Shown piece after piece: positions 36,356 to 59,506 of a DNA stretch of 64,000 nt (position 1 is its first letter; each line of letters begins with the position of its first letter). The notes under the pieces were generated by a model. The model did not search any database, was not told the origin of the DNA, and saw only the letters and a list, made by a program, of their open reading frames with translations. The stretch is from Alphaproteobacteria bacterium (GTDB lineage Bacteria; Pseudomonadota; Alphaproteobacteria; DSM-16000; Inquilinaceae). A program made the translations under genes and the position numbers. The stretch is from contig JANQIX010000014.1 of the NCBI GenBank assembly GCA_028281925.1, positions 1-64,000 of the forward strand, in the 5' to 3' direction.

Positions 36356-36712
36356 GGTGTGCATGGGGATAGCACGTTGGTCTGTTGACTGGATTCAACT
36401 AGCGGATAAGTGCGGCCGTTGATTGCAGGCAGTGCATGCGTTCGTGTTAGGCATCGTGCGCGAACGTTGGCAATTCTGTTTCAGCCGAACTCTGTTGATG
36501 TTGTTTTGACGACTCTCCATCGCGTTGGCGTCCGCGATGATCCAATTCCGTACAGTTTGCGTATTTGTTCGCGTGAACAAGAGAGTTTGAGCAACTGGCG
36601 TCCACCAATCTCGGGTCGCGACGCACGCCTCTAGCCGTGCCTGATTGGCGTGGCTACCGAACATGCAATCCAATCACCCAAAGAACGGAACAACCGCAGG
36701 CAGGAGAGCATC
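36356..36712 (+). other. 357-base leader region of the fasciclin/RTX gene
   Basis: A comparatively AT-rich stretch with no convincing gene. It contains several short GTTCG/CGAAC-type inverted pieces (for example around 36440-36475 and 36565-36585). A long untranslated leader or promoter region of the large secreted protein is the simplest reading. Confidence 0.4.
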
Positions 36713-38725
36713 ATGTTCCACTTCTTCAAGTTCTTCTTTCCCAAACCGAAACCGACGATAGCGGACATCGCGGTCACGAACGGAAACTTCGATATCCTGG
36801 TCGCTGCGTTAAGCCAGGTGAATCTGGTCGACACCTTCGCCGACCGGCATGCTGACTTCACCGTATTTGCGCCGACCGATGCAGCCTTTACCGAACTGGC
36901 GATCACTCTGGGTATTGACGTGTCCGGCCTCGACGAGACCGGTATCGCAACGGCGATCATCGAAACGCTTGTCGACATCACCGGAAGCCAGGCGGCTGCC
37001 GATCAGCTTTTGACCAACATCCTGCTCTACCATGTGAAAGACGGCGGCAGCACGGTCCAGCAGCTTCAGGCCACCGGGACCGTCGAGACGCTGCTGACGG
37101 ACGCCACGTTCACCATCGACGGCACCGAACTGGTCGACAACGACCCGGATGTCGAAGATCCCGAGTTCATCGAAGGCCTGACTGACATCAAGGCCGCCAA
37201 CGGCACGATTCAGGCGATTGATCGCGTGCTGCTGCCAATCGACATCGAAGAGGCCGTGGCGCAGCCGACGATCGCAGAGATCGCCGCGACGAACGGGAAC
37301 TTCGACATCCTGGTCGAAGCCCTGACCGCTACGGGCCTGGTTGGCACCTTTGCCGACCGGGACGGCGCCTTCACGGTCTTCGCACCGACCGACGCCGCGT
37401 TCACGGAGCTTGCGATAACGCTGGGCATCGACGTTGCCGGGCTGACGGAAACGCAGATCACCGCGGAAATTCTCAGCACGCTGGAGGCCATCACCGGCAG
37501 TGAAGCGGCGGCGAACCAGCTGCTGACCGAGATCCTGCTCTATCACGTGAAGGCGGGCGAGAGCACCGTCGCCGAACTGCAAGCCGACGGTACGGTGGAG
37601 ACCCTGCTGTCCGGCGCCAGCTTTACCGTGGACGGCAACGAACTGGTGGATGCCGATCCGGAAGTGGAAGATCCGGAGTTCATCGAGGGCTTGACCGACA
37701 TCGAGGCCGTGAACGGCAACATCCAGGCGATCGACCGCGTGCTTCTGCCGATCGACATTGAAGAGGCGGTGGCGCAGCCGACGATCGCGGATATCGTCTT
37801 GGCCGTTTCCGGTGACAGCGGCTTCGACAGCAACGCGGGCGATTTCGACATCCTGCGCGACGCCCTGACGGCAACCAATCTGGTGGGCGCCGTCGCCGAT
37901 CGTGACGCCGATTTCACGGTCTTCGCGCCGACCGACGAGGCATTCGGGAAGCTGGCGGTCGATCTGGGTTTCGACGGTGATGCCAGTGACGAGAGCGCCG
38001 TGTTCAACTTCATCGCCGGTGCAACCGGTTACGTCTCGCCGGACGATCCGGGCCTGCTGGATGATGTCCTGCTCTACCATGTGGCGCCGGAAGGCCGGAC
38101 CGTGGCCGAGCTGCAGGCCGACGGGACAATCGACACGGTGCAAGGCGACAGCTTGACCGTCCAGGGCAAGACCCTGGTCGACAACGACCCGGACGTGAAG
38201 GACCCGAAGCTGATAGAAGGTGCGACGGATATCGAGGCCGCGAACGGCGTTGTCCAGGCGATCGACCGCGTGCTTCTACCGGCCGATCTCGCCGACGCCA
38301 CGCCGGAGCCGACGGAGATCAACGGCAGCTTCCGTCGCGACCATCTGATCGGCACCGACGGTGACGACGTGATCCGCGGGTTCTTCGGCCGCGACCGGCT
38401 GTTCGGCGGCGATGGCGATGACGAGCTGTTCGGCGGCTTGGGCCGCGATCGTCTCTCGGGCGGCGACGGCGACGACACACTGACCGGCGGGCTCGGCCGT
38501 GACCGCTTCGACTTCAGCCATCTCAGCGGCCACGACGTGGTCACCGATTTCGGCTGGCGCGACAAGCTGATCTTCTCGAAGGACGACTTCGCCAACGCCA
38601 GAGAGGTGCTGGCCGCCACCAGCGACCAGGGCGCCGGCGCCTTCATCGAGGGAGAAAACGGCAGCGTTTTCCTGGCTGGTGTCGATGCCGACCATCTGAG
38701 CGGCCGGGACTTCCTGTTCGTCTAA
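36713..38725 (+). CDS. Secreted protein with three fasciclin (FAS1) domains and a C-terminal RTX region
   Basis: A 670-residue protein. After a short MFHFFKFFFPKPKP start, three FAS1 domains of about 165 residues follow (roughly 15-175, 183-345 and 355-530), each with the TVFAPTDxAF and LLYHV motifs and ending AIDRVLLPxD. Residues about 540-600 hold RTX nonapeptide repeats (GGDGDDELFGG, GGDGDDTLTGG) that bind calcium, followed by a DVVTDFGWRDKLIF type I secretion signal. No Sec signal is present. It is probably exported by a type I system and acts in adhesion or biofilm. The ATG at 36713 is preceded by GGAGAG. The first two FAS1 units are nearly duplicated. Confidence 0.93.
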   Translation: MFHFFKFFFPKPKPTIADIAVTNGNFDILVAALSQVNLVDTFADRHADFTVFAPTDAAFTELAITLGIDVSGLDETGIATAIIETLVDITGSQAAADQLLTNILLYHVKDGGSTVQQLQATGTVETLLTDATFTIDGTELVDNDPDVEDPEFIEGLTDIKAANGTIQAIDRVLLPIDIEEAVAQPTIAEIAATNGNFDILVEALTATGLVGTFADRDGAFTVFAPTDAAFTELAITLGIDVAGLTETQITAEILSTLEAITGSEAAANQLLTEILLYHVKAGESTVAELQADGTVETLLSGASFTVDGNELVDADPEVEDPEFIEGLTDIEAVNGNIQAIDRVLLPIDIEEAVAQPTIADIVLAVSGDSGFDSNAGDFDILRDALTATNLVGAVADRDADFTVFAPTDEAFGKLAVDLGFDGDASDESAVFNFIAGATGYVSPDDPGLLDDVLLYHVAPEGRTVAELQADGTIDTVQGDSLTVQGKTLVDNDPDVKDPKLIEGATDIEAANGVVQAIDRVLLPADLADATPEPTEINGSFRRDHLIGTDGDDVIRGFFGRDRLFGGDGDDELFGGLGRDRLSGGDGDDTLTGGLGRDRFDFSHLSGHDVVTDFGWRDKLIFSKDDFANAREVLAATSDQGAGAFIEGENGSVFLAGVDADHLSGRDFLFV

Positions 38726-41959: not shown

Positions 41960-42358
41960 CTACCCATCCCCCTCATCCATCAGCCTGTCGATGGCGCGGC
42001 GGTCCCTCTTCGTCGGCCGGCCGGCACCGCGCTGGCGGGCGCCTGGCTCAAGCGTGTCGGACGGCAATCGGTTCTCGCGCGACGGTGGCGCCAAGTCTTC
42101 ATAGAGCGTCTGCGCCTCCGGCGCCGGACCGCGGCGCGCGCCCAGCGCCAGCACGCGGACGACGCGCACATGGCCACCATGGGCGAAGGTCAGAACCTGA
42201 CCGGGGCGCACGGTGAAATGCGCCTTGTTCACGATGGCGCCATCTACCCGGATCCGCCCATCGGTGCACAGGCGTGTCGCCAGCGAACGGGTTTTGCAGA
42301 AGCGCGCGAACCACAGCCATTTATCGAGGCGGAGCCCGCCACCTCCGGCGTCCGTCAT
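41960..42358 (-). CDS. S4-domain RNA-binding protein (HslR-like)
   Basis: A 132-residue protein with the S4 domain LRLDKWLWFARFCKTRSLATRL and GRIRVDGAIVNKAHFTVRPGQVL, then a basic tail. HslR-type proteins bind stalled 50S-peptidyl-tRNA complexes after stress. It overlaps the end of the helicase gene by 4 bases (ATGA), so the two are co-translated. Confidence 0.93.
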   Translation of the reverse strand: MTDAGGGGLRLDKWLWFARFCKTRSLATRLCTDGRIRVDGAIVNKAHFTVRPGQVLTFAHGGHVRVVRVLALGARRGPAPEAQTLYEDLAPPSRENRLPSDTLEPGARQRGAGRPTKRDRRAIDRLMDEGDG

Positions 42359-44841
42359 CGCCGCGCGCTCAGGGCCTGCAGCTTGGCAAAGGGGGAGTCC
42401 GGTTGCGGCTTGGGGCGCCGGTCACCGCGGCGCCGGTCCGGGCGCCGCTGATAGGTGACGACACCGTCCGGTCCGGCATCGCCTTTGAATCCAATGGATT
42501 CCAACAGGCCGGGCAGGGCCGTCATCGGGCAGCCGGCGAGCTGTGACAGCTTCGGTGTCGGCACGAAGGGCCCCTGGCGGCCAAGCTTGGCGCAGGCGGC
42601 GGACAGGGCCTCCAGACGATCGGCCCGGCACGCCCGATCCCCGGCCAGGGGGTATCCGATGGCCAGATAGTACGAAGCATCCATCCGCGTATCGGCGTGG
42701 GCGGTCAGGCTGCCGGCGGCGGGCAGCGGCGGCGGCAACTCCGCTCCGCGGGCCACGGCCCACAAGAGGCCGCGCATGGCCACCTGCCGCGGCTTCAAGA
42801 GCCTCGGCAGGAAAATGAAGGTGCCGCCGATCTCCACGCCCAGTTTCTGCAGGCGTCGGCGATCTGATTTGTCCAGCGTGGCCACCATGTCGGCGACATC
42901 GGCGCGCCGCAACGTTCCCAACCCCTCGGCTATCTGGAAGGCAAGGCCGCGGGCGGGACCGCTCAGCTCAGCCTGGCGCAGCCGAAAGAGCGGTGCCAGC
43001 GTTTCCGCCACCGTTTCGCCCAGCCAGGCCGTCAGCCGCTGGGCAATGCGGTCGCGTTGTTGCGGTTCCAAAAGATCGCTGGCGAGCGGCTTGGCCGCTG
43101 GCGCCAGTACCTGGGCGCCGGCCGCGATGCGGGCGATGGTAACCCCGTGCCACAACAGCGTGCCGTCCGGCGCCAGAGCGACGGCCTCGTGCGGGGCGGC
43201 TTCCAGCCGGCGCACGCGGGCTGCGATCTCGTCTTTCAGCGCGCGCCGTGCGGCCCCCATGAGCGCGCGGGCGTCTTCGGCATGGGTCGCCGTGTCGGGG
43301 CGGAAGCGGAACCCTTCGATCCGGCCGATATGCTCGCCCTCGACCACCACATCGCCTGTGCGGGTCACCGCCGCCAACAGGTCGCCGCCGCTTTTCAGGC
43401 TCTTCACCAGCACGGCCTGGCGCCGGTCGACGAAGCGTTGCGTCAGGCGCTCGTGCAGGGCGTCGGACAGCAAGTCCTCAACCGAGCGCGCCTTGCCCTG
43501 CCAGTGGCGCGGATCAGCCACCCAGTCGCCGCGATGGGCGATGTAGGTCCAGGTGCGGATATGGGCCAGGCGACCCACCAGGGTGTCGATATCACCATCG
43601 GTGCGGGCCAGATGCGCGATCTGTCTCGCCACCCAATCGGTGTCGAGGCGGCCGTGGGGCCCGGTCAGTTGCCGAAACACCTCGCCCAAAAGCCGCGTAT
43701 GGGCATCCGACAGAATCTTCCGGAAATCGGGGATCTGGCAGACGTCCCAAAGGATGCGTACGGCAGCGCGGGACGATGTCCGGTCGATAACGGCGGGCTC
43801 TTTTGCCAGGGCTGCCAACGCCATGTGATCATCGGCCTCCGCCGCCCGCCGCAGCACCGGAACAGGCGGCCGTCGCTCCAGGCTGCGCAGCAGGTGGTCC
43901 GGGCTGCGGAAGTCGAGATCGGTGTTGCGCCACATCAAGGCGCTGAGCGGATCGAAGCTGTGGGTCTCCACCGCCTCGACGATCTCCGGCTCCAGCGGGC
44001 CGATCTCGGCCGTGGTGCCGAAGGTGCCGTCGGCCAGATGGCGCCCGGCACGGCCGGCGATCTGCGCCACCTCTGGCGCCCTCAGCCGGCGTGGCACGCG
44101 GCCGTCGAACTTGTCCAGCCGGGCGAAGGCGACATGGTCCACATCCATGTTCAGGCCCATGCCGATGGCGTCCGTCGCCACCAGATAGTCGACCTCGCCC
44201 GACTGATAGAGGCTCACCTGGGCGTTGCGCGTGCGCGGGCTCAGCGCCCCCAGGACGACGGCCGTGCCGCCGCGCTGGCGGCGCAGCAGTTCGGCCGTCT
44301 GATAGACCTCCGTGGCAGAGAAGGTGACGACGGCGGACCGCGGCGGCAGCCGCGTCAGCTTGCGCGGGCCTGAATAGGTGAGCTGCGAGAACCGCGGGCG
44401 CGACAGGAACTCCGCGTCCGGCACCAGGCGGCGAATCAGCGGGCGGATCGTTTCCGCCCCCAAGACCATGGTTTCCTCAAGCCCGCGGGCATTCAGCAGG
44501 CGGTCGGTGAAGACGTGTCCGCGTTCCGGGTCGGCGGCAAGCTGAATCTCGTCGATGGCCAGGAACTCGAAGGCACGGTCCAGCGGCATGCTCTCGACCG
44601 TGCAGGCGAAGTATTCCGCACCCTGAGGGACGATCTTCTCTTCGCCCGTGACCAGTGCGACCCGAGCGCGCCCCTTCTCACGGACCAGACGGTCGTAGTT
44701 CTCGCGCGCAAGCAACCGCAATGGAAAGCCGATGATGCCGCTCGCATAGCTCAGCATCCGCTCGATGGCCAGGTAGGTCTTGCCCGTGTTGGTTGGCCCG
44801 AGGACGGCCAGCACCCGTGAGCGGTCGGCGATCGGCGACAT
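42355..44841 (-). CDS. SUV3-like DExH RNA helicase
   Basis: An 828-residue helicase. Motif I is VLGPTNTGKTYLAIERML, motif II is AIDEIQ, motif III is TFSATE, and motif VI is QIAGRAGRHLADG, the pattern of SUV3/mitochondrial-degradosome helicases. The C-terminal half (about 400-828) is a helical region with a basic tail. SUV3 homologues unwind RNA for decay; in alphaproteobacteria the role is less clear. The S4 gene overlaps its stop codon by 4 bases, linking it to RNA or ribosome handling. Confidence 0.93.
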   Translation of the reverse strand: MSPIADRSRVLAVLGPTNTGKTYLAIERMLSYASGIIGFPLRLLARENYDRLVREKGRARVALVTGEEKIVPQGAEYFACTVESMPLDRAFEFLAIDEIQLAADPERGHVFTDRLLNARGLEETMVLGAETIRPLIRRLVPDAEFLSRPRFSQLTYSGPRKLTRLPPRSAVVTFSATEVYQTAELLRRQRGGTAVVLGALSPRTRNAQVSLYQSGEVDYLVATDAIGMGLNMDVDHVAFARLDKFDGRVPRRLRAPEVAQIAGRAGRHLADGTFGTTAEIGPLEPEIVEAVETHSFDPLSALMWRNTDLDFRSPDHLLRSLERRPPVPVLRRAAEADDHMALAALAKEPAVIDRTSSRAAVRILWDVCQIPDFRKILSDAHTRLLGEVFRQLTGPHGRLDTDWVARQIAHLARTDGDIDTLVGRLAHIRTWTYIAHRGDWVADPRHWQGKARSVEDLLSDALHERLTQRFVDRRQAVLVKSLKSGGDLLAAVTRTGDVVVEGEHIGRIEGFRFRPDTATHAEDARALMGAARRALKDEIAARVRRLEAAPHEAVALAPDGTLLWHGVTIARIAAGAQVLAPAAKPLASDLLEPQQRDRIAQRLTAWLGETVAETLAPLFRLRQAELSGPARGLAFQIAEGLGTLRRADVADMVATLDKSDRRRLQKLGVEIGGTFIFLPRLLKPRQVAMRGLLWAVARGAELPPPLPAAGSLTAHADTRMDASYYLAIGYPLAGDRACRADRLEALSAACAKLGRQGPFVPTPKLSQLAGCPMTALPGLLESIGFKGDAGPDGVVTYQRRPDRRRGDRRPKPQPDSPFAKLQALSARR

Positions 44842-44965
44842 GGCGTCAGTGGTGAAGCTTTATTTGCCGCAATGCAAGGGTTCAGGGCATGATGCCCGCG
44901 CTTCGGTCAGCGGGCGGGGCGACCCTGTCGGCTCTTGTCCATCGACGTGCCCATAATTCGACAGT

Positions 44966-44976
44966 GGAGGTGATCC
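44966..44976 (+). promoter_or_regulatory. Extended Shine-Dalgarno of the first tandem envelope gene
   Basis: GGAGGTGATCC is complementary over 11 bases to the 3' end of 16S rRNA (GGATCACCTCC), with the ATG 1 base after it. This is longer than needed; the extreme match can give very strong or slow initiation. Confidence 0.65.
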
Positions 44977-44977
44977 A

Positions 44978-46456
44978 ATGCGTGGATGCAGGCTGTTCGT
45001 CGTCACCGCGGTTGCTGCCGGCGTGGCATGGCCGGCGTCGGGTCTTGCCCAGGTGACACCGGAGGAAGCCCAAGAGATCGAGACCGGATTCAAGGCCTGG
45101 TTGTCCGAGAACATAATGGTGCCGGATGCCGAGGTTTCCATCGTCTTCGACGGCGGCGTCGAAGTAATGCCGGACGGTGACCGGTACATGATGACGATTC
45201 CGGCCGCCACGATCTCTGTTGAAGACGAGGTGGAGTTCGTCGTCGACACGATCCCGGTGGAGCTCGTTCCGGCCGGGGAAGGCCGGTACAACGCCACCTG
45301 GACGATGCCGGACCGCTACGAGTTCACAGAGCCATACGGCAGCGACACTGTGGTCATCACAGTCGGCGCGCAGCGGAACGTTGCGTTGGTGGCGCCCGAA
45401 TTCCAGACGTTCCTCGACGCGGATATCGAGTGGAACGATGTCGTGCTGCTGCCGCCGGATGATGAGGGCGAACTGTCGCTGGGCGCGCTGCGGCTGTTCG
45501 GCGAGAGCGATGAAACGGCCCCCGGCGTCTTTGACAGCACGTACGAGTTGAGCTTCGAAGGCCTGAACTTCCTCGACAACCGCAGCGGCGACACCTTCAC
45601 GCTGGAGTCGTTCGGCGTCGCAGGCGGTATGGAGCAGCTGAACCTGCCGGCCTATATGGCGTTCTTCGAAGAGCTGACGGCGATCATAGAGGCGGGCGAA
45701 ACGATGCAGCCCGGCGGCGAGGCCGAGTTGATGCAGCGAATGCAGACGCTGATCAGCGGCACGCCGGCGCTTCTCGACAGCTTCAGCTTGGAATACTTCG
45801 TCGCGGGCCTCGATGCGGACATCGAGGGGGAAGCTGTCGTGCTGGGCGAAGCGAGCCTGGGGGTCGACTTCTTCGGCATGTCCGGCGATGCTTCCGATCT
45901 CACGATCTTCTTCCAGGCGAACACCGTCGATATTGCGCCCCCGCCGCCCTTTGCACAGTACATTCCGACCGAAGTTGCCGTTGAGATGGGGCTGGCCCAG
46001 ATCCCCAACGAAGCGATCATCGAGGCCCTGAGCCAGGCGATCCAGAACATGCCCCAGATGGGTCCGGAAGGGGCGATGATGATGGCGGGCTTCGCGTTGC
46101 AAGAGGCGATGATGAGCATGGGCAGCGAGGTCCAGGTGCGGGAGTTCAACATCATTGCGCCGACCTACACGGTCTCGGTCGAGGGTTCGGCCAGCCCATC
46201 CCAGTCTTCGCCCTTTGGGGCGATTGCCCAGGCGACGATCCTCGTCGGCAATCTCGATCAGTTGCAGCAAGAGCTGATGGCGATGCCGGAAACGCAGGAA
46301 CCGGCACAGATGATCGCCGTGTTCCAGGCCATGGGTCAGGAGGATGTGGATGTCCAGGGAAACCCGGCCCGCCGGTTCGATATCGAGGTGACTGAGGCCG
46401 GTTCGGTCACTCTCAACGGTGCCGACATGGCACCGCTTCTGCAGCAGATGCAGTAA
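44978..46456 (+). CDS. Exported envelope protein, tandem paralogue 1 of 3
   Basis: A 492-residue protein with a signal peptide (about 1-25, ending GLAQ). The mature part is rich in beta strand and ends VTLNGADMAPLLQQMQ. Shared segments with its two neighbours are YIPTEVAVEMGLAQIPNEAIIEAL, a REFNIIAPTYTVSVEG strand and GNLDQLQQEL. The three-gene family looks like DUF2125-type periplasmic proteins; DUF2125 has no established function. It has a near-perfect Shine-Dalgarno and its own terminator at 46485-46518. Confidence 0.8.
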   Translation: MRGCRLFVVTAVAAGVAWPASGLAQVTPEEAQEIETGFKAWLSENIMVPDAEVSIVFDGGVEVMPDGDRYMMTIPAATISVEDEVEFVVDTIPVELVPAGEGRYNATWTMPDRYEFTEPYGSDTVVITVGAQRNVALVAPEFQTFLDADIEWNDVVLLPPDDEGELSLGALRLFGESDETAPGVFDSTYELSFEGLNFLDNRSGDTFTLESFGVAGGMEQLNLPAYMAFFEELTAIIEAGETMQPGGEAELMQRMQTLISGTPALLDSFSLEYFVAGLDADIEGEAVVLGEASLGVDFFGMSGDASDLTIFFQANTVDIAPPPPFAQYIPTEVAVEMGLAQIPNEAIIEALSQAIQNMPQMGPEGAMMMAGFALQEAMMSMGSEVQVREFNIIAPTYTVSVEGSASPSQSSPFGAIAQATILVGNLDQLQQELMAMPETQEPAQMIAVFQAMGQEDVDVQGNPARRFDIEVTEAGSVTLNGADMAPLLQQMQ

Positions 46457-46484
46457 GCCCAAGGGCCGACAGTCACATCCTGGT

Positions 46485-46518
46485 GCCGGCGCAGTCCCGC
46501 CACTGCGCCGGCCTTTTC
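46485..46518 (+). terminator. Strong rho-independent terminator
   Basis: GCCGGCGCAGT (46485-46495) and ACTGCGCCGGC (46502-46512) form an 11-base perfect stem with a CCCGCC loop, followed by CTTTTCC. It ends the transcript of tandem paralogue 1. Confidence 0.9.
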
Positions 46519-46656
46519 CTGTCTTCGTTCACTCAGCGCACCGTCGGCGAAACGCCAGTATCTCGCCGCATTCTCACACTAGATGTGCGGTTCAGCCGTG
46601 TTCGGCGGCAATCCGACGAAGGGGTCGCGACGATCCCGGCACAGCGGGGGGCGAGC

Positions 46657-48213
46657 ATGCGTCGATCCGGGTGGATGATTGCGCTGGCGGCCGTCGGCCA
46701 TGGGGCTTTGGTGTCGTCCGCCGTGGGGCAAGAGGCGGCGACGGGAACAGAAGGGGCCGCGCCAGCACCAGCCCGACCAGAGCAGCCGACAACAGTGCCG
46801 GCCACGCCGGAAATGGCCGAACGGCTTGAGGGCGAGATCGCCGCCTGGATCGAAGCCCGCCTGTCGGACGACCAGCTGGATCTCGCCGTGGATTTCGACG
46901 GTCCCGTTGCCGTAAGGGCGGAGGCCGATCGCTACCTGCTGACAGTCCCCACCGCAACCGTGCCGCTTGCCAACGGCGCACGGCTTCAGTTTGGCGAGAC
47001 GGCCGGCGAGATCGTCGATCAGGGAGAGGGTCGCTTTGGCGTCTCGCTGACCGTGCCGAATCTCTACGAGTTGAGCCGCAGAGAGTCCGATTGGACCAGG
47101 TCGCTGTCGATCGGTTCGCAATCTGTCATCGGAGAGTTCTCCGCCGATCTCGGCCTCTTCCTCGATCTCGATGTTTCGCTGAATGACATCCTGCTGTCGC
47201 CGCCCGATGCTGAAGACGGCCAGTTCGGCTTGGATGCCTTGACGGTGGTCGTGGCGTCCGATGAGGCCGAGCCGGGCAGCTATCAGGTTCGATATGGGCT
47301 CGGGCTTCGTGATCTCAGTTTTGACGATCCGGCGGGAGGCGACAGCATGTCTCTCGGTTCTCTGGAGATGGGGCTGTCGATCGTCGACCTTCGCTTGGAA
47401 CAGCTGATCCAGTTCATCGAACGCGTGCAGACGATCACCGATAGCCGGCAGGGCATGCGCGGTCGATATGGAGAGCGCGCGATGGTGCGTGCGCTAGGCC
47501 GGTTGTTTGCCGACACGCCGGCGCTGATCGGCGGCGTCACAGCCGAAGTCACGCTGGAGGCGCTGGACACCGATTTCGAAGGCGAAGGCGTGCATGTCGG
47601 CAATGGCGAATTCACCGTTGCGCTGTCCGGTCTGGCCGATGAGATGCTCGATCTGACCGTTCGTTATGAGGGGCGTGAGTTTGAGGTCGTGCCGCTGCCG
47701 CCGCTCCCGTCGCTGATACCCAACGAAATTGTCGCCGACTTCGGGGCCACGCAGATACCCATTTCCGCGATCCTGGATCGGTTGAAGCAGGCGCTGCAAT
47801 GGTTGCCGGACATGGATGAGGACGAGTTGGTTCCGCTGACAGTCGGGGCAATCCACGAGGCAATGGTGGCTGCCGGCAGCGAGTTCAGGACCCGAGAAAT
47901 GCGCGTGACGGCGCCGGCCTATTCGGTCGAGATCGATGCTGCAGCGGCTGCGTCGCGGCTGTCCCAGTTCGGCCTTGCCGCGAGCGGTACGATGCGGGTC
48001 GCCGGGCTCGACCGCGTTGTGGCGGACCTGCTGTCGTTGGATATCGACGATGAGGGCGCGATGGCGCTGACCCTCTTCCAGGCCATGGGCCGGCTCGACA
48101 TCGGTGACGATGGCGAAACGATCCGGCGCTATGAGGCGGAGGTGACGCCCGACGGCGTCGTCTTGCTGAATGGCGCCGACATGGCCCCCCTTGTCCCGGA
48201 GCTGCTCCGGTAG
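46657..48213 (+). CDS. Exported envelope protein, tandem paralogue 2 of 3
   Basis: A 518-residue protein with a signal peptide (about 1-24) and a Pro/Ala/Glu-rich linker, then the family domain. It shares LIPNEIVADFGATQIPISAILDRLKQAL, the TAPAYSVEID strand and the C-terminal VLLNGADMAPLVPELLR with its neighbours. The ATG at 46657 is the first Met before the signal helix; the frame is open further upstream. The terminator in front suggests a separate promoter. It is followed 54 bases later by paralogue 3. Confidence 0.8.
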   Translation: MRRSGWMIALAAVGHGALVSSAVGQEAATGTEGAAPAPARPEQPTTVPATPEMAERLEGEIAAWIEARLSDDQLDLAVDFDGPVAVRAEADRYLLTVPTATVPLANGARLQFGETAGEIVDQGEGRFGVSLTVPNLYELSRRESDWTRSLSIGSQSVIGEFSADLGLFLDLDVSLNDILLSPPDAEDGQFGLDALTVVVASDEAEPGSYQVRYGLGLRDLSFDDPAGGDSMSLGSLEMGLSIVDLRLEQLIQFIERVQTITDSRQGMRGRYGERAMVRALGRLFADTPALIGGVTAEVTLEALDTDFEGEGVHVGNGEFTVALSGLADEMLDLTVRYEGREFEVVPLPPLPSLIPNEIVADFGATQIPISAILDRLKQALQWLPDMDEDELVPLTVGAIHEAMVAAGSEFRTREMRVTAPAYSVEIDAAAAASRLSQFGLAASGTMRVAGLDRVVADLLSLDIDDEGAMALTLFQAMGRLDIGDDGETIRRYEAEVTPDGVVLLNGADMAPLVPELLR

Positions 48214-48267
48214 CTTGCGTCACGGACCGCCGCATATCTGCACCTGATGCGGCCGAAGGAGACTCTC

Positions 48268-49728
48268 ATGCGACACACAGCAATCCCGGCCGGCGTCGCC
48301 CTCGCCGCGTGCCTCGCTTTGCCCATCACCGCCGCAGCCCAGGCCACGGACCAGACGGCCGCTCAGCTGGAGAGCGATCTGAAACGCCTGCTGACCGAGT
48401 GGATGCGGCCCATGGCGGGCCTGATCGACATGGTGTTCGAGGGCGATATCACCGTGGCTGCTGAGGAAGATCACTATGTCGCGGCGATTCCGGCCTATGA
48501 GCTGGCTTTCGCAGGGCTGATGAGCATGGGTTTTGGGCCGAGCGAGTGGCAGTTGGACCCTGCGGGTGACGGTCAATACATGATTACGATGTCCATGCCG
48601 GCCGTACTGAACATCGACTCAGTCGACATCGGCCTTTCCGGGGACATGACCTACGGCGACGGCGAGACCACGGCGCTCGTCGACTTTGAGACCGGCTGGA
48701 TCTCAGCCTACGAGAGCCACATGGAGGATATGGTCCAGACCTTCGACGCGACGGGGGGTGGCGCCAACATCGCCCTCTTCACCATGAGCGGAGAGCATAC
48801 GCGCACCGGGCCGGGCATGGCCGACGCCTACGGCGACCTCATCTACGAAGGCTATGAGTCACTCGACAGCCAATTCGGGCTGAGCGTCACGGCAGACCGC
48901 ATCGCGACGGAATGGGCGGTGGAGGCGCTCAATGTGGACTCCGGTGCCAGACTGATGCGCATTTTTGCCGATCTGATTCCGGGTTCGGTCGACCTGGAAC
49001 CTGATGAGGAGGCCATTGCGGCCGCTTTCCGCGGCGCACTCAGCCAGGCGCCCCTGTTTGCAAACGCAGCGTTCAGCTTCGACTATGACAATCTTCGGTA
49101 TGAGGTGTTTGGGTTCGGGATAACGTTCGAGGAGACGGACGGCGTCTGCAACATGAGCGGATTCGCCGACGAGGTTTCGACGCTCGATTGCAGTGGCGGC
49201 ATGAGTATCGCCGGTCTCGAGCCTGCACCGCCGTTGGGCGCAGAGCTGATTCCGAGCGAGATTGTCATGGGCGTCGCCTTCGAACGGGTCCCGAGGGCCG
49301 CGATGATCGACGCGCTGGCAGTCGCGCTCGATCGGATCCCGGTGTTGGGTGAAGATCAGGCGTTTGCCGAAGCCGGCCTGGCGATTACGGCGGCAATGGG
49401 CGATGTCGCAAGCGAAGTTGAGCTGAGCGGACTCAGGCTTGAGGCACCGGCCTATTCGCTTGTCGCGGACGGTACGCTGACGGTAGCGGCCGATTCCCCT
49501 CTGGGGGTGACGGCAGCCGCAACCGTCACGCTTGGTCGGGTGGAGCAGCTGCGTCAGGCCCTCGCCGGCTTGGGCGACGAGGCGGCCCTGATGCTGGAGG
49601 TCATCTCTGCGATCGGTCGCCCTGAGGTGGATGCCTCCGGCAACCCGGTTCTGGTGTTCGACATCGCGCTGACGACCGCGGGAGAGGCGTTGGTCAACGG
49701 GTCGGACATGGAGGCGCTCATGCCTTAG
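48268..49728 (+). CDS. Exported envelope protein, tandem paralogue 3 of 3
   Basis: A 486-residue protein with a signal peptide (about 1-26, ending AAAQ). It shares LIPSEIVMGVAFERVPRAAMIDAL, EAPAYSLVADGTL and the ending ALVNGSDMEALMP with the two genes before it, but is the most divergent. It has two Cys residues in its central part (about 300-320) that the others lack. The ATG at 48268 follows AAGGAG. It probably shares a transcript with paralogue 2. Confidence 0.8.
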   Translation: MRHTAIPAGVALAACLALPITAAAQATDQTAAQLESDLKRLLTEWMRPMAGLIDMVFEGDITVAAEEDHYVAAIPAYELAFAGLMSMGFGPSEWQLDPAGDGQYMITMSMPAVLNIDSVDIGLSGDMTYGDGETTALVDFETGWISAYESHMEDMVQTFDATGGGANIALFTMSGEHTRTGPGMADAYGDLIYEGYESLDSQFGLSVTADRIATEWAVEALNVDSGARLMRIFADLIPGSVDLEPDEEAIAAAFRGALSQAPLFANAAFSFDYDNLRYEVFGFGITFEETDGVCNMSGFADEVSTLDCSGGMSIAGLEPAPPLGAELIPSEIVMGVAFERVPRAAMIDALAVALDRIPVLGEDQAFAEAGLAITAAMGDVASEVELSGLRLEAPAYSLVADGTLTVAADSPLGVTAAATVTLGRVEQLRQALAGLGDEAALMLEVISAIGRPEVDASGNPVLVFDIALTTAGEALVNGSDMEALMP

Positions 49729-49861
49729 CCCGGACGATTGCCGGGCCAGGGCGAGGCAGCGGAAGAGACCTCGGGATTGCACCAACGGGCTTGCGTGCGG
49801 GCGCTGACTTGCACATATCAGCGACCATCCTGCACCAACCAACAAACACGATTGACGGGTG

Positions 49862-51745
49862 ATGACCGAGGAAAAGCTTTCGTTCCAGGCCGAAGTCAGC
49901 CGGCTCTTGGAGATTGTCGCCAAATCCCTTTACAGCCATGAGGAGGTGTTCCTCCGTGAGCTGATATCCAACGCATCCGATGCGTGCGACCGGCTGCGCT
50001 ATGAGGCGCTGACGCAGAGCGAGCTGGCCGGCGACGACCCTTACAGGATCACGCTCTCCGTCGATAAAGACGCCCGTACTTTGAGTATCGGCGACAACGG
50101 CATCGGCATGAACCGCCAGGACATGGTGGACAACCTGGGCACGATCGCGCGTTCGGGCACTCGGGCGGCGATGGAAGGCCTGACCGGTGATGCCAAGAAA
50201 GATCTGGCCCTGATCGGGCAGTTCGGCGTCGGCTTCTATTCGGCCTTCGTCGTGGCCGATCAGGTCGAGGTGTTGAGCCGCAAGGCCGGTGAGCCGGAGG
50301 GCTGGCGCTGGATTTCCGACGGCAAAGGCAGCTTCACCATCGGCGAGGCCGACGACGTTCCGCGCGGCACCACGGTCAAACTGCATCTGGCCGAGGGCAA
50401 GGATGAGTTCCTGCAGGCCCACCGCATCCGGCACATCGTCAAGACCTATTCCGACCACATCGCTCTGCCCATCGTCATGGCCGACGACAAGGGCGAAGAG
50501 GAAACGCTGAACCGCGCTTCGGCGCTCTGGGTCCGGTCGAAATCCGATATCAGCGACGACGACTACAGAGAATTCTATCACCATGTCGGCCACGCCTTCG
50601 ACGATCCGTGGCTGACCATCCATTACAAGGTCGAAGGCGTGATGGAGTATTCCGTTCTCGTCTTCGTGCCGTCGACCCAGCCCTTCGACCTGTTCCAGCC
50701 CGAGCGCAAGCATCACGTGAAGCTCTATGTCCGTCGCGTGTTCGTAACGGACGAGGCCCAGGGTCTGGTGCCGCCCTATTTGCGCTTCCTGCGCGGCATC
50801 GTCGACAGCGAAGACCTGCCGCTGAACATCAGCCGCGAGATGCTGCAGCGCAATCCGGTGCTGGCGAAGATCCGCCAGGCCGTCACCAAGCGCGTTCTGT
50901 CCGAGATCACGACGAAGGCGAAGGAAGATCCCGCAGCCTATGAGGGCTTCTGGGACAGCTTCGGGCCGCTCTTGAAGGAAGGGGTCTATGAGGATGCCGA
51001 CCAGCGCGAAGCCTTGCTGGCGCTGCTTAGGTTCCAGTCCACCGAGTTCGATGGGTGGGTGACGCTGGACGACTATGTCAGCCGCATGAAGGAGGGGCAG
51101 GAGGCGATCTACTACATCACCGGCGAGGATGTGGAGGCCCTGAAGAAGTCGCCCCAACTCGAAGGATTCCGCGCCCGCGGCGTGGAGGTTCTGCTGCTGA
51201 CCGATCCGGTGGACGAGTTCTGGGTGCCCGCAGTAGGCGAGGTGCAGGAAAAGCCACTGCGCTCCGTCACGCGGGCCGGCACCGATCTTTCCAAGGTCAA
51301 GGCGCCGGAGAAGGACGGCGAGGACAAGTCGGAAGAACCGCCCGAGGCCGCCAACATCGATCAGCTGATCGCGGCCTTCAAGCTATCGCTGGACCAGGAG
51401 GTGAAGGATGTGCGCACCTCCGAACTGCTGACCGACAGCCCGGTCTGCCTGGTGGCCGACGAACACGATATGGACATGCATCTGGAACGGCTGCTGAAGC
51501 AGCACGGACAGCTGCGCGGCGAAGCCAGCAGGCGAGTTCTGGAGGTCAATCCCCGCCATCCGCTGATCGCCAAGATGGCGGAGATGGCCGGTGGTTCGGA
51601 CGACGACAAGGATCAGGTGCGGGAACTGGCGTTTCTGATGCTGGACCAGGCGCGCATCGTCGAAGGCGATCCGGTGCCTGACCCCGCGGCCTTCTCCCGC
51701 CGCCTGAATGCAGCCCTGCAGCGCGGGCTGACATTGGCAGCATGA
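49862..51745 (+). CDS. htpG: Chaperone HtpG (Hsp90)
   Basis: A 627-residue Hsp90 homologue, full length. The ATPase N-domain has ELISNASDACDRLRYEAL, DNGIGM and GQFGVGFYSAFVV; the middle domain has NISREMLQ. It refolds and matures proteins under stress. The ATG at 49862 directly follows an alternative GTG. It is independent of the gene before it. Confidence 0.98.
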   Translation: MTEEKLSFQAEVSRLLEIVAKSLYSHEEVFLRELISNASDACDRLRYEALTQSELAGDDPYRITLSVDKDARTLSIGDNGIGMNRQDMVDNLGTIARSGTRAAMEGLTGDAKKDLALIGQFGVGFYSAFVVADQVEVLSRKAGEPEGWRWISDGKGSFTIGEADDVPRGTTVKLHLAEGKDEFLQAHRIRHIVKTYSDHIALPIVMADDKGEEETLNRASALWVRSKSDISDDDYREFYHHVGHAFDDPWLTIHYKVEGVMEYSVLVFVPSTQPFDLFQPERKHHVKLYVRRVFVTDEAQGLVPPYLRFLRGIVDSEDLPLNISREMLQRNPVLAKIRQAVTKRVLSEITTKAKEDPAAYEGFWDSFGPLLKEGVYEDADQREALLALLRFQSTEFDGWVTLDDYVSRMKEGQEAIYYITGEDVEALKKSPQLEGFRARGVEVLLLTDPVDEFWVPAVGEVQEKPLRSVTRAGTDLSKVKAPEKDGEDKSEEPPEAANIDQLIAAFKLSLDQEVKDVRTSELLTDSPVCLVADEHDMDMHLERLLKQHGQLRGEASRRVLEVNPRHPLIAKMAEMAGGSDDDKDQVRELAFLMLDQARIVEGDPVPDPAAFSRRLNAALQRGLTLAA

Positions 51746-51779
51746 GTGCCACAGAAGCGACGCACGTCGATTGAGGGGA

Positions 51780-52265
51780 ATGTTTGTGGTGAAGCAATTC
51801 GCTCAGGCCGGACTGGTTGCGCTTGCGGCGTTGGCGGGTCCGGCTCTGCCGGCTTGCGCGGTCGAGTATCAACTCGGCCACATGATTATCGAGCGGCCGT
51901 GGGGCGCTTTGCCGCCGTCCGACACGTCGCAGCCGGCCTATGCCTTCTTCACCATGACCAATCTAGGAGATGTGGAGGACGTGCTGGTGTCGGCGGCGAC
52001 GACGGCGGCGGACTCCGCTGAGCTGCTGCGCGACACGGACCATGGAAGCGGGCGTCGCTTCGTTCCAGTCGAGCATGGGATTGCGGTGCCGTCGGGTGGA
52101 ACTGTCGTGTTGGCTCCGGATGGGCTCCATATTTGCATCATGGGGCTTGATGCAGCGCTGGCGGAGGGGGACAGCTTCCCCATGACGCTCCATTTTGAGG
52201 CCGCGGGGACGATTGAAGTGGATGTGGTGCTCGGCGGCCCGGACCCAAGCAATCCTGAAGAGTGA
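51780..52265 (+). CDS. PCuAC-like exported copper-chaperone-related protein with incomplete metal site
   Basis: A 161-residue protein with a signal peptide (about 1-30) and a PCuAC (DUF461) fold: PPSDTSQPAYAFFTMTN, PSGGTVVLAPDGLHICIMGL and a C-terminal beta strand. Known PCuAC proteins bind Cu with HxnMx21-22HxM. Here the second pair remains (HICIM) but the first His and Met positions read Leu and Phe (AELL...RRFVPV). It may bind another metal or have lost chaperone activity. ATG 51780 is close to GAGGGG; GTG 51786 would space better. Confidence 0.8.
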   Translation: MFVVKQFAQAGLVALAALAGPALPACAVEYQLGHMIIERPWGALPPSDTSQPAYAFFTMTNLGDVEDVLVSAATTAADSAELLRDTDHGSGRRFVPVEHGIAVPSGGTVVLAPDGLHICIMGLDAALAEGDSFPMTLHFEAAGTIEVDVVLGGPDPSNPEE

Positions 52266-57856: not shown

Positions 57857-59506
57857 ATGGCCGACCCCAAGACCCCCGACGACCCGACCGCCGGCACACC
57901 CCTCACGCCGCTGGTGCAGCCGACCGAAGTGCCAGACCAAGCGCCGCTGGAACCCGAGGCGACGGCGCGGGTCGGTCGGCGCCGGCCGGTCGGCGGTGGG
58001 CGTGATGCCAAGCGGGCCGCCCGCGCGCGAGCCATGGTCGCCTCAAGCCCCTTCATCACCCGCCATCACCGCCCATACGAGGTGCTGGACGAAGAGGGGC
58101 TGGAGCTGATTGAGCGCAACAGCGATTTCATCTTGAAAGAGGTCGGCATCGAGTTCCGCGGCGATGCGGAGGTGCTGGATATCTGGCGCGAGGCCGGCGC
58201 GGATGTGGATGGGGAGCGGGTGCGCTTCGATAGCGGCCTGTGCCGGCAGATCATCCAAGCGACGGCCCCGCGCGAATTTACGCAGCACGCCCGCAATCCG
58301 GAACGCTCGGTCACGATCGGCGGGCCGAACACGGTGTTCGTGCCGGCCTACGGGCCCCCCTTCGTGCGCGATCTGGACGGCGGCCGCCGCTATGCGACGC
58401 TGGAAGATTTCCACAACTTCGTGAAGCTCGCCTATCAGTCGCCCTGGCTGCACCACTCCGGTGGCACGATCTGCGAACCGGTGGACGTGCCGGTGCCCAA
58501 GCGGCATCTCGACATGCTGCTGGCCCATCTGACCCTAACGGACAAGGCCTTCATGGGCTCGGTCACGGCGCCGGAGCGGGCGGAAGACAGCGTCGCCATG
58601 GCCAAGCTGGCCTATGGCGACGCCTTCGTCGACAGCCAGTGCGTGCTGACCGCGCTGATCAACGCCAACTCGCCGCTGGTGTTCGACGCCACCATGCTGG
58701 GGGCCTTGAAGGCCTATGCCCGGGCGGGCCAGGCCTGCATCGTCTCGCCCTTCATCCTGGCTGGCGCCATGAGCCCGGTGATGTCCGCCGGAACGCTGGC
58801 CCAGCTCTATGCCGAGGCCCAGGCCGGCATGGCGCTGACCCAGCTTCTGCGCCCCGGCGCGCCGGTGGTGTTCGGCACCTTCGCCAGCTCCATCTCCATG
58901 CAGTCGGGTGCGCCCACCTTCGGCACGCCGGAGCCGGCACTGGTGCTCTACGGTGCCGCGCAGTTGGCGCGCCGGCTCGGCGTGCCGTTCCGTTCCGGCG
59001 GCGGCCTCTGCGGCTCCAAGATCCCGGACGCGCAGGCCGCGTACGAGGCCGCGAACACGCTGAACGCCACCCTGATGGCGGGCGTGAACTACGTGCTGCA
59101 CGCCGCCGGTTGGCTGGAGGGCGGCCTGGTGATGGGCTATGAGAAGTTCGTGATGGACGCTGACCAGCTGGGCATCCTGGAAACCTTCGCCCGCGGCATC
59201 AACCTGTCCGCCGACGGCCAGGCCCTTTCAGCGATCCAGGAGGTCGGACCCGGCGGCCATTTCCTCGGCTGCGCCCACACCCAGGCCCATTTCGAAACGG
59301 CCTTCTACCGTTCGGCCATCGCCGACAACAACAGCTTCGAACAATGGTCCGCCGACGGCGAGAAGGACGCTGCGGCCCGCGCCAACGCCGTGTGGAAGAA
59401 GATGCTCGCCGACTACCAGCCCCCGCCGCTGGACGATGGCATCAACGAGTCCCTGCGCGACTATGTGGAGCGCAGGAAGCGGGAGCTGCCGGACCATGAG
59501 GTTTGA
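57857..59506 (+). CDS. Trimethylamine methyltransferase (MttB) family protein, without pyrrolysine
   Basis: A 549-residue MttB-family enzyme. A Pro/Arg-rich N-terminal extension (1-60) precedes the barrel with NSDFILKEVGIEFRG, GPNTVFVPAYGPPFV, VLTALINANSPLVFD and AGWLEGGLVMGYEKFVMD. No in-frame TAG is present, so this is the non-pyrrolysine group; known members demethylate glycine betaine or other quaternary amines and pass the methyl group to a corrinoid protein. No corrinoid protein or activation gene is nearby. Confidence 0.88.
   Translation: MADPKTPDDPTAGTPLTPLVQPTEVPDQAPLEPEATARVGRRRPVGGGRDAKRAARARAMVASSPFITRHHRPYEVLDEEGLELIERNSDFILKEVGIEFRGDAEVLDIWREAGADVDGERVRFDSGLCRQIIQATAPREFTQHARNPERSVTIGGPNTVFVPAYGPPFVRDLDGGRRYATLEDFHNFVKLAYQSPWLHHSGGTICEPVDVPVPKRHLDMLLAHLTLTDKAFMGSVTAPERAEDSVAMAKLAYGDAFVDSQCVLTALINANSPLVFDATMLGALKAYARAGQACIVSPFILAGAMSPVMSAGTLAQLYAEAQAGMALTQLLRPGAPVVFGTFASSISMQSGAPTFGTPEPALVLYGAAQLARRLGVPFRSGGGLCGSKIPDAQAAYEAANTLNATLMAGVNYVLHAAGWLEGGLVMGYEKFVMDADQLGILETFARGINLSADGQALSAIQEVGPGGHFLGCAHTQAHFETAFYRSAIADNNSFEQWSADGEKDAAARANAVWKKMLADYQPPPLDDGINESLRDYVERRKRELPDHEV

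Follow-up and report, generated by a model that had tools for sequence, protein, structure and literature searches.

The 64,000-nucleotide stretch of alphaproteobacterial DNA analyzed here, hereafter the window, carries three tandem genes whose products are true full-length paralogues. Their similarity is far beyond chance, since pairwise BLASTP comparisons over near full length gave E-values of 4e-84 (copies 1 and 2, 33% identity), 1e-46 (copies 1 and 3, 27%), and 1e-22 (copies 2 and 3, 23%). As judged from profile comparisons, the family they belong to is a long and previously unrecognized branch of DUF2125, and we propose, with a probability of roughly 45%, that the three genes encode soluble, periplasmic, lipid-type carriers shaped as an open half-barrel or groove. 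The routes by which phospholipids and lipoproteins traverse the periplasm have begun to be worked out only recently and, to our knowledge, few soluble carriers have been recognized in alphaproteobacteria beyond the Lol, Lpt, and Mla systems. In this regard, the present analysis connects a family that had no annotation with DUF2125 and supplies a testable idea of its job.

Layout and history of the three copies

The genes lie between a divergently oriented helicase gene and htpG (Table 1), with 54 bp separating copies 2 and 3. The first-pass annotation had described three tandem exported ORFs belonging to one diverging family; their sizes and positions were confirmed, and full-length paralogy at 23–33% identity bears out the common origin. 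A fourth copy was sought in the same genome and none was found at significant E. All three products carry, by inspection, classical and cleavable-looking signal peptides (GLA-Q, AVG-Q, and AAA-Q at the junction in copies 1, 2, and 3), followed in copy 2 by a Pro/Ala-rich linker. The shared motifs that had been pointed out are indeed present in every copy, although they had been slightly tidied: the first reads IPTEVA, IPNEIV, and IPSEIV in copies 1, 2, and 3, respectively, the second APTYTV, APAYSV, and APAYSL, and the C-terminal one LNGADM, LNGADM, and VNGSDM, the departures being IPTEVA in copy 1 and APAYSL in copy 3.

Table 1. Features of the locus, in window coordinates
Feature	Position	Strand	Description
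Copy 1	44978..46456	+	492 aa, predicted exported DUF2125-like protein; constrained "anchor" copy adjoining the helicase
Copy 2	46657..48213	+	518 aa, paralogue sister to copy 1
Copy 3	48268..49728	+	486 aa, paralogue that has diverged furthest
Conserved upstream segment of copy 1	44942..44977	+	3' end is the extended Shine-Dalgarno GGAGGTGATC
Intrinsic terminator hairpin 3' of copy 1	46485..46512	+	11 pairs, 9 of them GC, then CTTTTCC
Suv3-type DEXQ-box helicase	42355..44841	-	Pfam DEXQc_Suv3 5.2e-29; divergent neighbor, outside the family
htpG (Hsp90)	49862..51745	+	NCBIfam HtpG 1.5e-230; downstream neighbor, outside the family; ORF listing starts at GTG 49859, feature start set at 49862
Possible separate htpG promoter	49790..49818	+	CTTG-N18-CACATAT, heat-shock-like; lies inside a block identical in the sister genome

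Copy 1 is set apart from copies 2 and 3 by a terminator and a conserved extended Shine-Dalgarno, both of which had been noticed earlier and are upheld here. The GC-rich hairpin that separates it from the other two (-25.2 kcal/mol, z -4.36 vs shuffled sequences) is a genuine terminator; it is the sole terminator-like hairpin of the copy region, and the sister genome retains both its outer stem and its T tract. The extended Shine-Dalgarno directly precedes the ATG, at the end of a helicase-copy 1 gap (139 bp, start codons included) that matches the sister genome at 96% identity; the other gaps reach 76% (copy 1-copy 2), 68% (copy 2-copy 3), and 86% (copy 3-htpG). No sigma-70-type promoter match was found upstream of copy 1. 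The block ahead of htpG might hold a separate promoter for that gene, a suggestion only, as about 1.4 chance matches are expected in the window.

The coding sequences are conserved to unequal degrees. Identity to the sister-genome counterparts is 94% for copy 1, 77% for copy 2, and 71% for copy 3, and dN/dS against the same genome amounts to 0.039 for the helicase, 0.086, 0.228, and 0.218 for copies 1, 2, and 3, and 0.053 for htpG, the values of copies 2 and 3 being about 2.5 times that of copy 1. The constraint on copy 1 resembles that on the housekeeping genes flanking the array, and copies 2 and 3 evolve faster yet under purifying selection. These unequal rates are compatible with the specialization that the first-pass annotation had suggested for the parts of a possible envelope system.

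With respect to the origin of the array, the tree pairs copy 1 with copy 2 in the window's genus (support 99/90) and places copy 3 without support. Copy 1 falls in an 18-row clade (98/95) that also includes copies lying on the helicase side in other genera, and independent sister pairs appear in genomes G006 and G055 (100/100), together with a separate expansion in genus g3; a further tandem pair occurs in G750. The three copies do not derive from one triplication, and tandem duplication happened several times independently. What had been called a triplicated family thus keeps its three paralogues and loses its single event. Independent pairs in several lineages, the elevated dN/dS of copies 2 and 3, and the single copy carried by most genomes that have the family are all consistent with gene birth and death, in which unequal crossing-over generates tandem copies next to a single-copy gene that is needed, the extras being kept for dosage or by drift and devoid of distinct functions. 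We regard this as rather unlikely, given that copies 2 and 3, at a dN/dS of 0.22, are still under selection, that both genomes of the genus hold all three copies in the same order, and that 23–33% identity makes mere dosage copies unlikely. If the products are carriers, as we prefer, tandem arrays in which one copy is constrained and several evolve fast would amount to a natural experiment in carrier diversification.

Kinship with DUF2125

Standard models do not recognize the window proteins: Pfam gave no matches to copies 1 and 2 up to E 10, NCBIfam gave none for any of the three, and a Pfam match of copy 3 to DUF6225 was spurious. DUF2125 (PF09898), itself functionally uncharacterized, had been put forward as a profile to check, and the lead was sound, in that profile comparison reveals distant homology, although the Pfam model does not detect the window copies, none of which reaches its gathering cut-off. 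Family members in two other genomes (G055 and G082) do score above the curated cut-off, and the model matches 4 of 30 aligned family members (best 5.4e-7). Compared profile to profile, the family and DUF2125 (a profile built from 30 sequences) match at 97.3% over 304 colinear columns, with reversed controls at 2.6% and 2.0%. Once the signal or anchor is removed, the values are 95.4% for the whole protein, 89.7% for the N-part, 95.4% for the C-part, and 1.9% for the middle. Since the N- and C-parts map in order onto DUF2125 but the middle does not, the family is a long form of DUF2125 with some 150 residues inserted mid-protein. No internal duplication was found between N-part and C-part (0.5%), and a similarity of 47% between N-part and middle spans 34 columns, too short to rely on.

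DUF2125 comprises short alphaproteobacterial proteins of about 340–430 aa, in comparison with 486–518 aa for the window copies, and the two share, besides the colinear terminal parts, the C-terminal 'G(L/M)DxL...LxxxG...DGxhxhxG' end. They differ at the N-terminus, where DUF2125 has an apparent membrane anchor and the window proteins a cleavable-looking signal peptide instead. DUF2125 is widespread in Alphaproteobacteria, with Caulobacter among our controls, and the window's genome holds a single short DUF2125 gene elsewhere (G000, contig C94:62779-63693), adjoined by ChaC-like and TSCPD-like ORFs as identified by eye. The wide occurrence of DUF2125 in this class, together with the alphaproteobacterial origin of the closest plasmid-borne HtpG proteins among those listed, is the basis for placing the window's organism there; no 16S rRNA was detected in its assembly. 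A DUF2125 protein is listed among those released by Asaia (PMC12502724). DUF2125 has also been described as the Pfam family nearest to the Chorein-N-like N-terminus of DUF2993 (pp 56%), a lipid-transfer domain class (Levine, PMC6791001).

A deeper link from DUF2125 to AsmA is only suggestive, because its score of 82% against the AsmA profile drops to 25% without the membrane anchor. The family itself gave no direct match to AsmA (PF05170) in hhalign (2.1% for the whole, 9% for the C-part). AsmA-like or Chorein-N proteins such as AsmA, TamB, and GspN, which are lipid or lipoprotein conduits, may share with the family model a beta-groove character; they are anchored in the inner membrane, whereas the family proteins are predicted to be soluble. 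Among the AsmA-like proteins, GspN functions in lipoprotein transport (PMC12802150). The three AsmA-like paralogues of E. coli, which are redundant and not equivalent (PMC8593681), offer a precedent for diverged paralogues with a common task.

Membership in DUF945 (PF06097; E. coli YdgA and YihF) was suspected on account of a C-terminal NG[QE]xM motif found in both families, which are also of similar length; the profile comparison is not significant (6–8%, with three DUF945 sequences in the profile), and the DUF945 model gives weak matches in 2 of 30 family members (best 0.0052). A sequence search of the PDB with two alignments returned chance matches only (triosephosphate isomerase, asparaginase), and no sequence relation to LptA, LptC, LolA, or RseB was found.

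Predicted fold and possible function

The structure prediction that had been recommended was carried out with AlphaFold2 on copy 1, using six sequences (three paralogue pairs); it yielded a beta meander and no significant structural match. The model (pLDDT 81, pTM 0.74) shows a signal helix and an amphipathic helix, followed by about 20 mostly antiparallel strands and a few long helices. Residues 24-222 modeled alone give the same strands (pLDDT 84, pTM 0.75). The beta-meander fold is plausible rather than certain, because the five models of this fragment spread in confidence from 84 down to 55. Hydrophobicity alternates along the predicted strands (2.77 vs 1.59 +/- 0.15 for shuffled sequences, family average in a windowed test, used in place of a per-strand test that gave no clear result for long strands), as expected of a sheet with one greasy face.

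Foldseek found no significant PDB match for either the whole model or the N-domain (24-222), with E above 0.001 throughout, and viral models, searched by fold, yielded nothing significant. Among the N-domain matches, LptA ranks first and recurs many times, at E 0.02 or worse. Open sheets that handle lipids recur among the nearest structural neighbors of this domain, all with Z below 8: JlpA comes first (Z 7.9, with 179 of 199 residues aligned), and LolA, LptC (Z 4-6 for these two), ORP, and FadL follow, but single-layer OspA and porins are also present. The half-barrels and jellyrolls of LptA, LptC, LolA, and RseB are recurrent weak neighbors of the N-domain, and the family topology differs from these lipid binders in being a longer meander.

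Export of the family is supported by prediction, and its placement in the periplasm is favored because of the signal peptides, read by inspection, and of lipobox variants: cysteines of this type (e.g., LLVAAC-G, LLLAGC-G), present in four genomes of group f37 (loci L054, L138, L140, and L143) and in one G055 copy (L055:8409-9992), predict lipoprotein versions of the family. Each copy, exported to the periplasm by its signal peptide, would fold into one antiparallel beta meander, strongly curved and flanked by helices. The resulting open half-barrel or groove would shield an acyl chain, a phospholipid, or a lipoprotein, and the cargo would be moved between the inner and outer membranes, as LolA, LptA, or AsmA-type proteins do. 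Copy 1, which has a terminator to itself and a strong ribosome-binding site, would keep the ancestral role, and copies 2 and 3 might have taken different cargo or conditions. We infer the steps that follow export, and likewise the lipid-type nature of the cargo; a groove carrying acyl chains fits best because a single sheet with a hydrophobic face is combined with a DUF2125/Chorein-like ancestry. The wider proposal that the long DUF2125-like family as a whole consists of soluble lipid or lipoprotein shuttles, Chorein-N/AsmA kin freed from the membrane and with their cargo split among alphaproteobacterial paralogues by repeated tandem duplication, is speculative and rather unlikely.

The same N-domain neighbors could be taken to indicate an envelope sensor or regulator, in which a half-barrel like that of RseB/MucB would bind lipid or misfolded outer-membrane components and the different copies would sense different stresses. 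RseB is among the weak structural neighbors, the genes adjoin the stress gene htpG, and MucB is reported to bind lipid signals (PMC7400510). However, no sigma factor or anti-sigma gene was recognized at the locus, the RseB matches are weak (probability 0.04-0.05), and in other lineages the gene is not found at this locus, all of which makes a sensor distinctly unlikely.

A different picture could be drawn from the whole model, whose neighbors are dominated by porins, ushers, and LptD (Z 8-10.6, rmsd mostly at least 7 A), a resemblance that we read as generic curvature. Together with the recurrence of OspA and JlpA for the N-domain, it would suit an outer-membrane beta-barrel of the porin type or a surface single-layer beta-sheet protein such as the JlpA/OspA-like adhesins. 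This reading is improbable: the terminal aromatic beta-signal is absent from all three C-termini (PLLQQMQ, VPELLR, and EALMP in copies 1, 2, and 3), long helices interrupt the model internally, and the Porin_4 profile falls from 52% with signal peptides to 0.2% on the mature proteins, the match having come from the signal peptide.

Distribution and genomic setting

Of 61 kin genomes searched with an alignment of the window copies, 21 contain relatives of the three proteins, and the family, whose members are about 500 residues long, occurs in 54 of the 387 sampled genomes of the class Alphaproteobacteria. In a sample of the phylum, 25 of 397 genomes had matches, every one in the same class. A scan of viral contigs with copy 1 found no relatives, and no family members were found on plasmids. 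From the first loci, 51 ORFs, part of them partial, were gathered; the invariant positions of the 30-member alignment fall within the IP.E region and, at the C-terminus, the G....NG end. At one locus (L062:5892-6401), a 169-aa protein beside the helicase consists of the C-terminal end of the family only, possibly a remnant or mini form, and a contig titled 'Anaerolineae bacterium' (L035, JANQQD010000306.1) carries the same locus, with 94% protein identity in copy 1, and is probably a mislabeled bin.

Most genomes of the window's taxonomic family keep the order of a leftward helicase gene, one to four rightward family genes, and htpG; the block is also present in other families of the class (G055, G071, G118, and G218) and in part in G066, G178, and G386. 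The helicase/HtpG setting is old and conserved in several families. Other lineages have the gene elsewhere, for instance next to genes for Sel1-repeat proteins or flanked by rplY- and prs-like genes, as seen by eye, and no lipid-transport partner was found in the neighborhood in any lineage looked at. The RNA-processing and chaperone context stressed in the first-pass annotation holds for several families and does not hold for some other lineages; because those lineages carry the gene elsewhere, its position next to the two neighbors does not count as evidence that they form a system together. HtpG and the Suv3-type helicase are cytosolic. A role as partner of either, as a co-chaperone or through coupled expression, would agree with the gene order kept in several taxonomic families but is very improbable, since signal peptides are present on the family proteins, a conserved promoter block seems to serve htpG separately, and elsewhere the family occurs without these neighbors. 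Beyond gene order, a functional tie to helicase or HtpG has no support, and the neighbors are likely incidental.

As regards Sel1-like repeats, one 728-aa family member (L051:1701-3887) is fused to N-terminal repeats of this kind, and at two other loci (L054 and L140) the family gene is adjoined by a protein whose repeats are of a similar type. The window itself further contains a protein that combines several fasciclin domains with subsequent RTX calcium-binding repeats (36650-38725), a PCu(A)C copper chaperone gene immediately 3' of htpG (51771-52265), and a homologue of the MTTB-family trimethylamine methyltransferases (57857-59506, 4e-233).
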